Part shown: positions 11,862 to 18,617 of the stretch, piece by piece
Numbering within the stretch: the first letter of the stretch is position 1
Layout: each line of letters begins with the position of its first letter
Notes under the pieces: generated by a model
Seen by the model: only the letters and a program-made list of their open reading frames with translations
Databases searched by the model: none
What the model was told of the DNA's origin: nothing
Program-made: the position numbers and the translations under genes
From: Xanthocytophaga agilis
GTDB taxonomy: Bacteria > Bacteroidota > Bacteroidia > Cytophagales > 172606-1
Direction: 5' to 3'
Length of the DNA stretch: 64,000 bases
Assembly: GCF_030068605.1 (NCBI RefSeq)
Contig: NZ_JASJOU010000005.1
Span: 1 to 64,000 of the forward strand

Positions 11862-11922
11862 ATTTTTGTAACAGGGATAGCATTACAGTCTAAGAGAGTT
11901 AAACTGTAATGCTATTCGTCTC

Positions 11923-13239
11923 TTAAACAGCGTCAGATAAACTGGTAAAGGTAAAGTCACGAATCCGCATAGGAGGAATCAGGTTGCCATTCACACGTTG
12001 TGCTTTTCCCATGGCATCCAGATTGTTCAACATGATGACCGGACTTTCATTAAAACGGAAGTTTTTGACAGGATATTTGATTTGTCCGTTTTCAATGTAG
12101 AAAGTACCATCACGAGTAAGACCTGTATAGAGTAATGTTTGAGGATCAACAGAGCGGATATACCAGAAACGAGTAACCAGAATGCCTTTTTCTGTACCTT
12201 TAATCAGGTCTTCCAGACTGCCATTACCCCCAGGAATGATAATATTAGAAGGGAAGGCAATAGCTTCTGTGCCTTTTTTCTGTGCCCAGAAACGATCATA
12301 GGCCATTGTCTTTACTACACCATTCTGTATCCAGTCTGTACGTTTGCGAGGTAGGCCATCATTGGTCCAGGTAGAGCCCGGAACTTCTGCATTCAATGGG
12401 TCAGAGTAGATACTGATTCGTTCGTCCAACAGCTTTTCTCCCAATTTGTTGCCTCCTCCTTTTTTAGAAAGGAAACTACGACCTTCATCTGCATTACGGG
12501 CATTGAAGCTGCGCATCATATTTTCAATCAGATCTACAGCAGCAGCAGGTTCTAACACAACTGTGTACTTACCTGGTTCAATAGCTTTTGCACTACGGGA
12601 GCCTATTGCTTTCTGAATAGCAATTTCAGAAGCTTCGCCGGAATCCAGTTTGGCAGCATCATTAAAATCACGGGTAACCCATCCCGAACCTAGCCCATCG
12701 TTAGTACGCATGGTCACAGTAAAGTTCAGGTCACTCTGTGTATGATAGGCAAACAGACCTTTGGAATTCATAATGGAAGAAAAACCAGAAGAATGCTCCA
12801 GGAAACCAGCTGCTGTTATATCTTTCTTAGAAGCTGGCAAAATGCTCTTCTCTGCTACATTGGCACGAAACTCAGGATCTATCTTTGCAGTACTATCAAA
12901 ATAGGCTTTAGCTTCAGCATATTGCTGAGGTCCTAATATACTTACATATTCAGGGTTTTCCGGAGCTAGTTTTGCTAGTTCTTCTGCTCGCTTCACTACT
13001 TTTTCCAGGGATGCACTATCAAATTCATTGATACTGGCAGTTCCTGTTTTCTTTCCAAATGAAGACTGGACAGACAACGTCATGTTCGTTTCTTCACCAC
13101 TGGTAGAGACCGTATTACGAGCATAACGAATGTTCCCACCATGATTATTATTCAGGCTTATTGAACACTCATCAGCCTTTGAATAGCCCAATACTTTTGT
13201 AAGCAATTGTTTTGCTTCCTCTTTACTTAATATTGCCAT
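11923..13239 (-). CDS. TldE/PmbA-type protein, copy 1
   Basis: 438 residues. The protein aligns along its whole length with the plus-strand copy at 17227-18564. Family markers are the N-terminal KADECSISL segment, RYARNTVSTSGE, GKYTVVLEP, and the C-terminal GLTRDGTFYIENGQI and FRFNESPVIMLNN. Like E. coli TldE it has no HExxxH motif, so it is presumed to be the non-catalytic half of a TldD-TldE metalloprotease heterodimer. No signal peptide is visible. It starts 28 bp after the stop of its TldD partner and is followed by DUF4159. An 86-bp segment near the 3' end (12041-12126) matches the other copy at 84 positions. Confidence 0.9.
   Translation of the reverse strand: MAILSKEEAKQLLTKVLGYSKADECSISLNNNHGGNIRYARNTVSTSGEETNMTLSVQSSFGKKTGTASINEFDSASLEKVVKRAEELAKLAPENPEYVSILGPQQYAEAKAYFDSTAKIDPEFRANVAEKSILPASKKDITAAGFLEHSSGFSSIMNSKGLFAYHTQSDLNFTVTMRTNDGLGSGWVTRDFNDAAKLDSGEASEIAIQKAIGSRSAKAIEPGKYTVVLEPAAAVDLIENMMRSFNARNADEGRSFLSKKGGGNKLGEKLLDERISIYSDPLNAEVPGSTWTNDGLPRKRTDWIQNGVVKTMAYDRFWAQKKGTEAIAFPSNIIIPGGNGSLEDLIKGTEKGILVTRFWYIRSVDPQTLLYTGLTRDGTFYIENGQIKYPVKNFRFNESPVIMLNNLDAMGKAQRVNGNLIPPMRIRDFTFTSLSDAV
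12041..12126 (-). repeat. Near-identical 86-bp tract in TldE copy 1
   Basis: The reverse complement of this segment matches 18343-18428 at 84 of 86 positions. Flanking sequence on both sides is more diverged. It encodes the GLTRDGTFYIENG region, so functional constraint may contribute. Confidence 0.75.
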
Positions 13240-13267
13240 TGGTTAGGTTTGTTTTAAGGATAGATGA

Positions 13268-14914
13268 TTAGATTTTCCGGGCGGTATTAATGACATTGAC
13301 ACCATCGAAGCGGGCAGTAGAACTTCCATGTGATACCGCACTTATCTGAGAAGGCTGTCCTTTGCCATCAAAGAAAGACCCAAACAAACGATAATCACTT
13401 TCATCACATACTTTCGAACACGAGTTCCAGAATTCCTGAGTATTGGATTGATAGGCTACATCATTTAGCATACCTACAACTTTTCCACCTTTTATTTCAT
13501 AGAAAAGCTGTCCGCCAAACTGAAAGTTATAGCGTTGCTGATCAATGGAATAAGACCCACGACCTGCAATGTAAATACCTTTCTCTACATCTTTAACCAA
13601 GTCATTGACAGAACATTTCTCTTTTCCTGGAGCAAGAGATATATTCGCCATCCGTTGAAACTGTACCGAACTCCAGCTATCGGCATAACAGCACCCTTGG
13701 GATTCAGCTTCGCCGATGATATGCGCCTGGTCGCGAATAGCCTGGTAATTAACAAGGATACCATCTTTAACCAGATCCCATCGTTTAGTTTTTACGCCTT
13801 CGTCATCATATCCTACAGCGCCCAATGATCCTGGTTGAGTCTTATCCGCAAATATGGTTACCTGCTTGCTACCATAATTAAAGTTTTTCGTTTTCCACTT
13901 ATCCAGTGTGGCAAAAGAGGTTCCTGCGTAATTAGCTTCATATCCAAGCACACGATCCAGCTCCAGCGGGTGACCTACCGATTCGTGGATCGTTAGACCC
14001 AAGTGGTTAGGCTCCAGTACAACTGTATATTTTCCCGGTTCTACAGATTTAGCAGTCAGCTTTTCTTTGGCATGTTTGGCTGCAGCAGTGGCATCTTCTA
14101 TAATGTCGTATGAGTTCTTATATAAAGAGAGACCTGTACCTGTTGGCCCTGCAATTTTGCCTGCTCCCTTTCCAGTCAAATATTCATATCCCATTCCCAT
14201 GGGAGCACTCAACGCATCACGGGTTTTGAAAGAGTTGGTTTTAGGATCGATGGCAGTTACTGTAAAATTAGGCCATATCCGATGTATATCCTGATCAATG
14301 TAAGATCCATCCGTTGAGGCAAAATATTTTTGTTCATTTATAAGGAACAGGGCAGAGTTCACAAAGTTGGCGCCATTCTTCATAGCAGCAGCATTAGCGG
14401 CTAGCAATAGGTCTACTTTCTCAGAAACAGGTACTTCAAACGCATTTTTCTGAATAGGAGTCTTCCAAGTCACTTCCCCATATCCTTTTTGCGGGGCTAA
14501 TTGAACCGGATCTTTTTGCAAACGGGAGTTTGCTTTGGCAATTGCAACAGCTTGCTTTGTTGCTTTAGCAATACCTTCAGTTGTTACTTCAGAAGTTGCT
14601 GAAAATCCCCAGGTGCCATTTACTAAGACGCGAATTCCAGCGCCAAAAGATTCTGTATTTACAATATTCTGCACCTTATCTTCTCTGGTAAACAGATACT
14701 GGTTCAAATAGCGACCTATACGAACATCTGCGTATGAGGCTCCACTACTTTTTGCGGCTTGTAAGGCAACATCAGCCAATTGTTTTTTCTGAGATACCTC
14801 CATTCCTGAGTTCAGAAATACAGAGGGGTCAACAGATTCTCCAAACATAGGTATAGGCATCATAAGTCCGCCTAATCCAAGTCCAGCAGCTTGAATAAAG
14901 TCTCTTCTTTTCAC
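13268..14914 (-). CDS. tldD: TldD-type metalloprotease with Tat-like signal, copy 1
   Basis: 548 residues from a GTG start at 14914. An in-frame stop lies five codons upstream, which excludes an earlier start. The N-terminus KRRDFIQAAGLGLGGLMM is a twin-arginine signal with a short hydrophobic core. The catalytic zinc motif HESVGH lies near residue 310, within TIHESVGHPLELDRVLGYEAN, followed by the conserved ANISL and NFQFGGQLFYEIKGGKVVG segments and NSCSKVC. TldD is the catalytic half of the TldD/TldE protease, which unthreads and cleaves peptides in E. coli. It heads the eight-gene minus-strand run. It differs from E. coli TldD in having an export signal. A 192-bp block is almost identical to copy 2. 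Confidence 0.92.
   Translation of the reverse strand: MKRRDFIQAAGLGLGGLMMPIPMFGESVDPSVFLNSGMEVSQKKQLADVALQAAKSSGASYADVRIGRYLNQYLFTREDKVQNIVNTESFGAGIRVLVNGTWGFSATSEVTTEGIAKATKQAVAIAKANSRLQKDPVQLAPQKGYGEVTWKTPIQKNAFEVPVSEKVDLLLAANAAAMKNGANFVNSALFLINEQKYFASTDGSYIDQDIHRIWPNFTVTAIDPKTNSFKTRDALSAPMGMGYEYLTGKGAGKIAGPTGTGLSLYKNSYDIIEDATAAAKHAKEKLTAKSVEPGKYTVVLEPNHLGLTIHESVGHPLELDRVLGYEANYAGTSFATLDKWKTKNFNYGSKQVTIFADKTQPGSLGAVGYDDEGVKTKRWDLVKDGILVNYQAIRDQAHIIGEAESQGCCYADSWSSVQFQRMANISLAPGKEKCSVNDLVKDVEKGIYIAGRGSYSIDQQRYNFQFGGQLFYEIKGGKVVGMLNDVAYQSNTQEFWNSCSKVCDESDYRLFGSFFDGKGQPSQISAVSHGSSTARFDGVNVINTARKI
13647..13838 (-). repeat. Near-identical 192-bp tract in TldD copy 1 (inverted partner of 16538-16729)
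   Basis: Read on the minus strand, this block matches 16538-16729 at 189 of 192 positions. The three differences are synonymous transitions. In the neighbouring 60 bp (13861-13920 against 16456-16515) 10 of 60 positions differ, so the edge of the block is sharp. Confidence 0.9.
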
Positions 14915-15467
14915 TTTGATTGGTTTTTAGGTTGATAACTCCTCTTATTGGAAATATTATATATCCTGTTGCTATAAGTCAAATCCAACAAGCTATATTC
15001 TTCAATTATCCCAAATATAATTTTTGTTTATATGAATGGAAGAAAAAAATGATGGGCGGTAGTATGTAAAACATTATACTCTTTTGTGAAAAGCATCCTT
15101 CACCAAATTATATTAAATAAGCGAATTTGCCATATATTTTTCACGAAAGAAGAGTAATTACTATTTATATATTGTATACAACAATGGCGGAAACAAGGTA
15201 CTAATAGACTAACTCAACTACATAAATTATAAAAAATCTTCAATTTTGAGTGATTCTATCATCCCACTTATCCTGATACATAGACCATACTTCCCTGAAT
15301 CCTGCCGTTCAAAAAATTTGACTATAACTTTATTGCGGCCACTCCTAATCTTATGTAATTTAAAAATCTGTAATTTTATATGGCTTATTGTGTATTTCTC
15401 CGAAGAGAGTTTGCAGAAGAGTCATTTTTTCAAAACCAACCTAACTTAAACCAAGGAGGAAATTACC
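14915..15467. other. Divergent intergenic region between the two TldD/TldE pairs
   Basis: 553 bp, strongly AT-rich, with no gene I can support. It should hold the promoters of both divergent units. A TATATTTG (minus strand, 15012-15019) fits the Bacteroidota -7 box but lacks a good -33 TTG. A 10-bp palindrome TTGTATACAA is at 15172-15181. An open frame of 67 codons at 15246-15449 shows no domain and ends just before the Shine-Dalgarno site of the plus-strand tldD, so I reject it as a gene. Confidence 0.5.
15453..15459 (+). promoter_or_regulatory. Perfect Shine-Dalgarno site supporting a TTG start
   Basis: AAGGAGG lies 8 nt before the TTG at 15468. Such a full anti-16S match is unusual for Bacteroidota and fixes the start of the plus-strand tldD at a non-ATG codon. 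Confidence 0.8.
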
Positions 15468-17108
15468 TTGAATCGTAGAGACTTCATCCAACTAGCCGGT
15501 ATGGGAGCAGGAGCATTTATGCTACCTAACATTCCAGTTTCCGGTCGTCCTATTGCAGTAGAAGCCATGCTGGAATCTCCCATGGACGTCGCCGTTAAAA
15601 AACGTTTAGCAGATGCAGCATTAAATGCGGCCAAATCAAAAGGTGCAACCTACGCTGATATTCGTATTGGCCGCTATCTGAACCAATTTGTCATAACCCG
15701 CGAAGACAAAGTACAGAACATTGTGAATACAGAGTCCTATGGAGTAGGTGTACGTGTCATTGCCAATGGTTGCTGGGGATTTGCTGCTGTGGTAGATGCT
15801 AAAAGTGAAGCTGACACTGCCAAAGCTGCAGAACAAGCAGTAGCCATTGCGAAGGCCAATTCCAAATTATTGAAGGAACCTGTTCAGCTAGCTCCACAAA
15901 AAGGATTCGGAGAGGTAAGCTGGAAAGCACCTATTCAGAAAAATGCGTTTGAGGTACCTATTAAGGAAAAAGTGGACCTGCTATTGAATGTTAATGCGGA
16001 AGCCTTAAAAAATGGAGCCAATTATATTAACTCTCTATTATTCTTAGTAAACGAACAGAAGTACTTTGCGTCAACGGATGGGTCTTATATCGATCAGGAT
16101 ATACATCGGATATGGCCTGTATTTACAGCAACTGCTATTGATCCTAAGACAGGTAAGTTTGAGACCCGCCAATCACTAAGTGCGCCTATGGGAATGGGAT
16201 ATGAATATTTGCAAGTTAATCCTAAAGATAAGGTGACAGGTATTACAACCCGTTATAATAAAGGATATGACATGCTGGAAGATGTAATAGCAGGAGCAAA
16301 ACAGGCAAAAGCAAAGCTAACAGCCAAGTCTGTTGAAGCAGGTAAATATGATCTGGTATTAGATCCTTCTCACTTATGGCTTACGATCCACGAATCAGTA
16401 GGTCACCCGCTGGAACTCGATCGCGTGCTTGGATACGAAGCCAACTTTGCCGGTACTTCCTTTGCTACACTTGATAAATGGAAATCAAAAAACTTTAACT
16501 ATGGTAGCAAACAAGTCAATCTGTTTGCCGACAAAGTTCAACCAGGATCATTAGGCGCTGTAGGATATGATGACGAAGGCGTAAAAACTAAACGATGGGA
16601 TCTGGTTAAAGATGGTATCCTTGTTAATTACCAGGCTATTCGCGATCAGGCGCATATCATCGGCGAAGCTGAATCCCAAGGATGCTGTTATGCCGATAGC
16701 TGGAGTTCGGTACAGTTTCAACGGATGGCAAATGTTTCTCTTGCTGCCGGAAAAACACCATTATCAGTTGCAGAAATGATTAAAGATGTAAAACGTGGTA
16801 TTTATATTATTGGTGATGGGTCATTTTCTATTGATCAGCAACGATATAACTTCCAGTTTGGTGGACAGCTTTTCTATGAAATAAAAGATGGTCAGATTGT
16901 AGGTATGCTGAAAGATGTAGCTTATCAATCCAATACTCAGGAATTCTGGAATTCTTGCGTAAAGGTTTGCGACGAGAAAGACTACCGCCTGGGAGGTTCA
17001 TTCTTTGATGGCAAAGGACAACCTTCTCAATCCAGTGCAGTATCACATGGAAGTTCTACTGCCCGCTTTAATGGTGTCAATGTCATCAACACTGCCCGTA
17101 AGCTATAA
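15468..17108 (+). CDS. tldD: TldD-type metalloprotease with Tat-like signal, copy 2
   Basis: 546 residues. Translation starts at a TTG supported by AAGGAGG 8 nt upstream and by alignment with copy 1 (NRRDFIQ against KRRDFIQ). The Tat-like N-terminus has a hydrophobic core GMGAGAFMLP. The zinc motif HESVGH is near residue 307 within TIHESVGHPLELDRVLGYEANF. Most of the protein is collinear with copy 1, but a loop after GMGYEYL differs in sequence and length. It is followed 118 bp later by its TldE partner. Whether it processes the same substrate as copy 1 cannot be told from sequence. Confidence 0.92.
   Translation: MNRRDFIQLAGMGAGAFMLPNIPVSGRPIAVEAMLESPMDVAVKKRLADAALNAAKSKGATYADIRIGRYLNQFVITREDKVQNIVNTESYGVGVRVIANGCWGFAAVVDAKSEADTAKAAEQAVAIAKANSKLLKEPVQLAPQKGFGEVSWKAPIQKNAFEVPIKEKVDLLLNVNAEALKNGANYINSLLFLVNEQKYFASTDGSYIDQDIHRIWPVFTATAIDPKTGKFETRQSLSAPMGMGYEYLQVNPKDKVTGITTRYNKGYDMLEDVIAGAKQAKAKLTAKSVEAGKYDLVLDPSHLWLTIHESVGHPLELDRVLGYEANFAGTSFATLDKWKSKNFNYGSKQVNLFADKVQPGSLGAVGYDDEGVKTKRWDLVKDGILVNYQAIRDQAHIIGEAESQGCCYADSWSSVQFQRMANVSLAAGKTPLSVAEMIKDVKRGIYIIGDGSFSIDQQRYNFQFGGQLFYEIKDGQIVGMLKDVAYQSNTQEFWNSCVKVCDEKDYRLGGSFFDGKGQPSQSSAVSHGSSTARFNGVNVINTARKL
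16538..16729 (+). repeat. Near-identical 192-bp tract in TldD copy 2
   Basis: Partner of the minus-strand block at 13647-13838: 189 of 192 positions agree and the three differences are silent. The block begins just after the FADKV codons and ends within the ANVSL codons, where divergence resumes at once. Confidence 0.9.
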
Positions 17109-17226
17109 CAATGGTGTCTATGGTATGGAGAGTACAATGGTATAGATAGAAGAAACTATACTCGTAACTCTATCTAATGCATGAGAAAAGGAAAATAAAG
17201 TCAACCACACCTACACAAGAATAATT

Positions 17227-18564
17227 ATGTCAGTTATATTAACAGAAGCTGAAGCTAAGGCATTGCTTCAGAAAGTATTAAGCTATTCTAAAGCAGATGA
17301 ATGTGAAGTAAATATATCGGGAGAACAACGAGGTAACATCCGTTATGCCCGCAGTTCCGTTTCTACCAGTGGATCTTTGATCAATAAAAACCTGGTTGTA
17401 CAGTCTGCTTTTGGGAAGAAAGTAGGAACAGCCACTATTGATGAATTCGATGATGCCTCACTGGAAAAGGTAGTACGCCGTTCAGAAGAACTAGCAAAAC
17501 TAGCTCCGGAAAACCCTGAATATGTAGGATTACTAGGTCCTCAACAATACATTAAAGCAACCGGATACTTTGACAGTACAGCCGCCGTATCTCCCGATGT
17601 TCGGGCCGAAGCGGTAGCAAAGAGTCTCCAGCTGGCTCAGGAAAAGAAACTGGTTGCGGCCGGTTTCATGGAAGATCGCAGCGGATATTCTGCTATGATG
17701 AATTCCAAAGGCCTCTTTGCTTACTATCCAAGCACAAATGTAAACTTTTCCTTAACTGTTCGTACAGAGGAAGGTACAGGTTCTGGATATGTTATACGCG
17801 GCTACAGCGATTTTAAAAAGCTGGATACAGCAGCGGCTACGACTATTGCTATTCAGAAATCTGTAAATTCTGTTGGAGCAAAAGCCATTGAACCGGGTAA
17901 ATATACTGTTATACTGGAGCCAACAGCAGCTGCAGTTCTCCTGGAGAACCTTTTCTTTGATATGGATGCACGTAGTGCAGACGAAGGGCGTTCCTCTCTT
18001 AGTAAAGCGGGAGGTAAAACTAAATTGGGAGAAAAGATTGTAGATGAACGTGTCACTTTTTACTCTGACCCTACCAATCCTGACTTACCTGCCTCTCCAT
18101 GGTCTGGTGATGGTCTACCTCAGGAAAAAATTAACTGGATAGAAAAAGGTGTAGTCAAGAACTTATCCTACTCACGGTATTGGGCTCAAAAGAAAGGCGT
18201 AAAAGCAATTCCTCAACCCAACAATATGATTATGGTTGGAGGAACAGCATCTCTGGAAGAGTTGATCAAAGGTACAGAAAAAGGCATCTTAGTTACCAAG
18301 CTTTGGTATATTCGTCCAGTGGACCCTCAGACATTGTTACTCACAGGTCTTACCCGTGATGGTACTTTCTACATTGAAAACGGACAAATCAAATATCCTG
18401 TTAAAAACTTCCGTTTTAATGAAAGTCCAATCATTATGCTTAATAATCTGGAAGCTATTGGAAAATCAGAGCGTGTTGTAAGCACAGAATCAGATATAAA
18501 TTATCTGATACCACCACTTAAGATTCGCGATTTTACATTTACCAGTTTATCTGATGCTATTTAA
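17227..18564 (+). CDS. TldE/PmbA-type protein, copy 2
   Basis: 445 residues, collinear with copy 1 on the minus strand. It shares KADECEVNI, RYARSSVSTSG, GKYTVILEP and the C-terminal GLTRDGTFYIENGQI and FRFNESPIIMLNN segments, and has a short extra stretch (VVSTESDINYL) before the final PPLKIRDFTFTSLSDA. It has no HExxxH motif and no signal peptide, so it should be the non-catalytic partner of the adjacent TldD. An 86-bp segment (18343-18428) is almost identical to copy 1. An intrinsic terminator follows, ending this two-gene unit. Confidence 0.9.
   Translation: MSVILTEAEAKALLQKVLSYSKADECEVNISGEQRGNIRYARSSVSTSGSLINKNLVVQSAFGKKVGTATIDEFDDASLEKVVRRSEELAKLAPENPEYVGLLGPQQYIKATGYFDSTAAVSPDVRAEAVAKSLQLAQEKKLVAAGFMEDRSGYSAMMNSKGLFAYYPSTNVNFSLTVRTEEGTGSGYVIRGYSDFKKLDTAAATTIAIQKSVNSVGAKAIEPGKYTVILEPTAAAVLLENLFFDMDARSADEGRSSLSKAGGKTKLGEKIVDERVTFYSDPTNPDLPASPWSGDGLPQEKINWIEKGVVKNLSYSRYWAQKKGVKAIPQPNNMIMVGGTASLEELIKGTEKGILVTKLWYIRPVDPQTLLLTGLTRDGTFYIENGQIKYPVKNFRFNESPIIMLNNLEAIGKSERVVSTESDINYLIPPLKIRDFTFTSLSDAI
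18343..18428 (+). repeat. Near-identical 86-bp tract in TldE copy 2
   Basis: Matches the reverse complement of 12041-12126 at 84 of 86 positions. Confidence 0.75.
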
Positions 18565-18583
18565 TTAAAACTATACCTCTCTG

Positions 18584-18617
18584 CTCCTCTGATATCTGTG
18601 ATGTCAGGGGAGTTTTT
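18584..18617 (+). terminator. Intrinsic terminator after the plus-strand TldD/TldE pair
   Basis: A 9-bp stem with one G-T pair (18584-18592 with 18604-18612) is followed directly by five T residues. Confidence 0.75.

Follow-up and report, generated by a model that had tools for sequence, protein, structure and literature searches.

Two diverged tldD paralogues lying in inverted orientation in the window (the whole stretch of 64,000 nucleotides that was analysed) share a nearly identical 192-bp block. We consider it almost certain that this block is an intragenomic (ectopic) gene conversion tract between copies duplicated long before, with one or more such events in each sister species since the two split. 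The homogenisation itself, its sharp limits and its action in both lineages after the split are shown by the data. The genes belong to two tldD-tldE operons that are arranged head-to-head in the window and diverge from a common intergenic region (Table 1). Over the whole tldD pair, 435 of the 1650 aligned columns (gaps included), approximately a quarter, differ between the copies, and the amino-acid identity of the two proteins is 76%.

Table 1. Features of the head-to-head tldD-tldE locus (positions in the window)
Feature	Positions	Strand	Remarks
tldD copy A	13268..14914	-	TldD-type metallopeptidase; HESVGH motif; Pfam PF01523/PF19290/PF19289 all above cut-off
tldD copy B	15468..17108	+	diverged from copy A; Pfam PF01523/PF19290/PF19289 above cut-off
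tldE (PmbA-like) copy A	11923..13239	-	downstream of tldD A; three PmbA_TldD domains above cut-off
tldE (PmbA-like) copy B	17227..18564	+	downstream of tldD B; PF19289 and PF19290 above cut-off
Intergenic region between the divergent operons	14915..15467	.	no clear likeness between the halves, by eye
Conversion block in tldD A	13647..13838	-	codons 359-423, within the C-terminal domain; 189/192 identical to the block in B
Conversion block in tldD B	16538..16729	+	189/192 identical to the block in A
Second, smaller silent tract in tldE A	12041..12114	-	73/74 identical to tldE B
Second, smaller silent tract in tldE B	18355..18428	+	73/74 identical to tldE A

Both TldD copies contain PmbA_TldD domains 1-3 together with the HExxxH motif (HESVGH in A and B), and are thus TldD-family proteins; copy A, the one searched, matched the E. 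coli TldD structure 5nj5_A at 1.4e-12. The locus resembles E. coli TldD/TldE (PmbA), as represented by 5nj5 and other structures, in domain make-up, in the HExxxH motif of TldD and in the pairing of the two genes. The likeness is a distant one, however, as the window copies lie outside the NCBIfam TldD equivalogs, scoring 69.2 and 63.0 bits against a cut-off of 513 for NF008006, and 141.7 and 126.8 bits against 635 for NF040952. In TldE B, PF01523 scored 19.8 bits, slightly short of its cut-off of 20.9. No plasmid match was found for positions 11900-18600 in the one collection searched.

The recount of the block gave three differences between A and B, all of them silent third-position transitions (G/A, C/T and G/A), in agreement with the initial annotation, which had also reported ten differences in an adjacent 60-bp comparison (13861-13920 against 16456-16515) and immediate divergence beyond the other edge. 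The former count was reproduced by eye on the alignment, and the latter is evident from the 20-codon windows flanking the block, which hold 12-14 nucleotide differences at one edge and, in the next two windows past the opposite edge, 18 and 23. Silent divergence in sliding 20-codon windows was not uniform along the tldD genes, which favours conversion: silent differences affected 0-2 of 19-20 codons in the block core and mostly 20-80% of codons elsewhere. The excess identity between the paralogues is therefore local, includes silent sites and has sharp limits. In both species the tract of low silent divergence was significant: p was 0.0002 by simulation (4000 runs using codon-specific background variability) and 5e-5 by permutation (20,000 runs), each being the lowest value that the test could give, and because of these values chance or uneven codon constraint was ruled out for the block. 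With the main tract masked, the tldD scan returned p values of 0.17 and 0.03, which we do not count as evidence. When the block was searched against the window-species genome, only the two tabulated copies were hit at E <= 0.001. A third copy acting as donor was rejected, the block being present just twice in that genome.

The likeness of the blocks within and between genomes, a comparison proposed in the initial annotation, was evaluated using the sister species (G001), which carries the same head-to-head pair. These are the only two usable species of the genus; a third genome (G002, 72% complete) gave no match. The first 40 kb of the window is collinear with the sister genome in one match at 93% identity. 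Within the block, the p-distance between A and B of the same genome was 0.016 in the window species and 0.021 in the sister, and the same gene differed between species by 0.068 (A) and 0.047 (B). The relation was reversed in the approximately 580 bp upstream of the block, with 0.279 and 0.265 within genomes against 0.076 and 0.030 between species; orthologue distances downstream were 0.051 and 0.053. Paralogues of one genome are thus closer to each other than to their sister-species orthologues in the tract, and the opposite holds in the flanks. The quartet site patterns followed the same division: the block contained no paralogue-type and 7 species-type sites, few because the block is short, as compared to 335 paralogue-type, 4 species-type and 2 cross-type sites in the flanks (Fisher p = 3e-12). 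In the AU test on the four sequences, the paralogue tree was rejected in the block (6.6e-5), whereas in the flanks the species tree was rejected both upstream (7e-8) and downstream (2e-41), the paralogue tree being preferred on both sides.

These data bear on whether a constraint on silent sites, such as an overlapping gene, RNA structure or codon usage, could have kept the block alike without any exchange. Open frames on the opposite strand do overlap the block, e.g., 13535-13828 (+). Block orthologues, however, differ approximately as much as orthologues elsewhere in the gene, the block distances to other genera range from 0.19 to 0.31, and constraint is unable to make copies of the same genome closer than orthologues. 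The distances, site patterns and AU test of the sister-species comparison exclude this explanation, and we assign it practically no probability. An assembly artefact, in which reads from two similar blocks were merged, is equally close to impossible. Both genomes are fragmented (9.77 Mb in 66 contigs for the window species, 60 contigs for the sister), but copies differing as the flanks do (about 20-28%) would not be expected to merge, and the block was found in two separate assemblies, each with its own alleles. Gene conversion, as the initial annotation had interpreted the block, is supported by the silent-divergence profile together with the sister-species comparison.

The same comparison refined the idea of a recent conversion, in that the process has acted in both lineages after the split and not just once. 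A single ancestral event, dating from before the species split and not followed by any other, would fit the tract limits determined by the scan, which nearly coincide in the two species (codons 360-431 and 366-424), and the tldE tract does resemble one older event, without species-type sites. An ancestral event alone, however, predicts roughly equal distances within and between species, whereas, out of 192 block positions, 3 and 4 differ between the copies within a species and 9 to 13 between copies of different species. The 7 species-type sites also speak against it, as does a stretch of 159 bp (alignment columns 1122-1280) with no A-B differences in the sister and three in the window species, and with nine orthologue differences in A and nine in B. 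Given this identity in the sister and the orthologue differences within the same 159 bp, both lineages were therefore homogenised after parting. We rejected the single ancestral conversion on these grounds and regard it as highly improbable. All four A-B block differences of the sister fall within the first 40 bp of the block, and its newest tract seems, judging from the alignment, to be shorter at the 5' end.

Under the repeated conversion that we favour, one copy would act as the template from which the corresponding stretch of the other is overwritten, a step presumably carried out by RecA-type homologous recombination. Tracts extending far into the flanks would be prevented by sequence divergence and mismatch repair, or else purged by selection. 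Copy B may have been the donor at least once; all four copies are B-type at the single diagnostic site of the block, a hint of the B-to-A direction. The block also includes two amino-acid states, Q406 and A423, common to both copies in both species and absent from the eight copies of the other usable genomes of the family (G003, G005, G006 and G007). Neither state is unique to this genus across the order, since other families have them too (of 77 sequences, counting this genus, 15 carry Q and 20 carry A), and their support for concerted change is limited to the family. A crossover in the block would flip 13839-16537 and thereby swap the 5' halves of the tldD genes. No inversion was detected between the window-species and sister assemblies (two genomes, collinear over 40 kb), and a fixed inversion through the blocks was rejected, as the two species show no such difference. 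There was likewise no sign of swapped gene halves: both upstream and downstream of the block, A is nearer to the A copy of G006 than to its B copy, and B is nearer to B. With a single orientation in the two genomes, there is no sign that the segment is invertible (phase-variable).

Gene conversion between paralogues is well known in bacteria, the tuf and rRNA genes being examples. The Salmonella tufA and tufB genes, like the tldD pair, are inversely oriented protein-coding paralogues of a single chromosome that undergo conversion (PMC5485169). The tuf pair is near-identical over its whole length (12 differences in 1185 nt) and its members are separated by 762 kb, whereas the tldD copies are approximately 25% diverged, start about 0.55 kb from each other and are homogenised in one segment. 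The tuf conversion was selected in the laboratory, and that of tldD is inferred from comparison; for tuf, almost half of the conversion events at one selected site were accompanied by inversion of the segment between the copies, and tracts were shortened by mismatch repair (PMC5485169). Intragenomic conversion also keeps the E. coli rRNA operons alike within a genome (PMC8022953); there it concerns whole RNA genes with one function, in contrast to one segment of two diverged protein genes. In one open literature library, no listed title dealt with conversion between tldD genes. The tldD block is a clean new instance of a known process. As a two-species case, it indicates that short conversion tracts are still active between protein paralogues diverged by approximately 25%, where recombination would be expected to be rare, and the segment is best handled separately in phylogenetic, dating or selection analyses of TldD in these bacteria.

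Other possible tracts were noted in the same gene pair. The tldE tract (Table 1) reached p = 0.004 in the window species and 0.0017 in the sister, and no species-type sites were found in it. It is probably an older or shorter conversion tract; it may represent one older event, or partly constraint. In columns 995-1038 of the tldD alignment (44 bp), copy A of the sister is identical to copy B of the window species, and at a series of sites around 13885-13928, just upstream of the block, the window-species A copy differs from the other three. Either clustered private changes or an additional tract in the sister may explain these columns. Some older exchange may also have touched the part downstream of the block, where the distance from the window-species A copy to its own B (0.218) is slightly smaller than that to A of G006 (0.234).

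The scan was extended to the order, using 77 sequences from 37 genomes, with 51 within-genome pairs from the 29 genomes that had two or three copies. Of 43 matching genomes, six were excluded: G034, G038, G071, G086 and G098 had one match each, and in G135 one copy was at a contig end and the other was partial. The partial or broken second copies in G022 and G133 were excluded as well. Three of the 51 pairs reached p = 0.0002, namely both pairs of this genus, each with its tract at the block, and one in G116, at codons 435-477. Among the remaining 48, eight had p values between 0.01 and 0.05, none of which would survive 51 tests, and seven of these lay elsewhere in the gene; the eighth was a weak tract in G017 that overlapped the block (codons 411-431, p = 0.046). 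The pairwise scan of these 51 pairs in 29 genomes thus did not reveal a tract at the same place across the order. Most pairs were neighbours (43 of 51; 41 direct and 2 inverted) and 8 were dispersed, the only inverted neighbours being the two pairs of this genus. The tldD pair in G116:C43 (L160, L163), which belongs to another family, is a direct repeat. A tldD copy with two in-frame TGA codons was observed at a contig end (G133:C71:4-1410).

Within the family, it is possible, at somewhat less than even odds, that this segment of the TldD catalytic domain acts as a recurrent hotspot, homogenised separately in several genera, even between distant copies, whereas the flanks would preserve two old and probably specialised versions. 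In the four further family genomes that could be used, the tldD copies lie on different contigs (G003, G005 and G006) or approximately 4.3 Mb apart on one contig (G007); in G005, both copies are near contig ends and possibly adjacent. The pairwise silent-site scan of these four genomes detected no significant tract (p from 0.22 to 0.40). The topology tests were more favourable to a hotspot. With this genus removed (8 sequences), the block favoured the lineage-wise topology, with an advantage of 18.6 log units and an AU value of 0.03 for the paralogue topology. Among 23 sliding windows over these sequences, 1088-1279 was the most lineage-wise (AU for the paralogue tree 0.02, uncorrected), four others leaned lineage-wise without significance and 18 leaned towards the paralogue tree. 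We relied on the full block, since the narrower core, with an AU value of 0.006, had been picked after seeing the data.

Twelve topologies were compared for 18 sequences, comprising 12 of the family and 6 of 25 from one other family. For the block, conversion in all four lineages was the best topology (AU 0.94), conversion in this genus alone was marginal (AU 0.0498), intermediate combinations that included this genus were acceptable (AU 0.067 to 0.23), and the four topologies without conversion in this genus were rejected. For the flanks, the sole accepted topology was the one with no conversion. In a block tree of 37 sequences, in which lineage-wise bootstrap support was low to moderate, the two G007 copies grouped at 82 and the four copies of genus g2 at 75, and the four copies of this genus were set apart at 98. 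The G006 copies were not sisters in this larger tree, and the hotspot was for this reason judged slightly less probable. Recurrence in other genera of the family is thus suggested by tree evidence that is borderline.

A recurrent hotspot would be the only unusual aspect of the locus. If it is real, one part of the enzyme would evolve in concert while the rest diverges, and the locus would offer a natural system for studying why conversion stays in one gene segment; in this genus, crossovers between the inverted blocks could also exchange the promoter-side halves of the two genes. The case stands slightly above routine because conversion was repeated in two species and may have recurred elsewhere in the family. 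In G006 (L026 and L027), the genes downstream of the A operon (DUF4159, MoxR, DUF58 and vWA-like genes) are those seen in the window, with no adjoining B operon; tldD and tldE of copy B lie on another contig, approximately 6.3 kb apart.

Both TldD proteins start with an RRDFIQ-type stretch (gene starts at 14914 and 15468), which we take to be a twin-arginine-like motif and list as a difference from E. coli TldD. The stretch was also present in TldD relatives and absent from both TldE partners. If TldD were exported by Tat, a putative route suggested by the motif, TldE might travel along with it.
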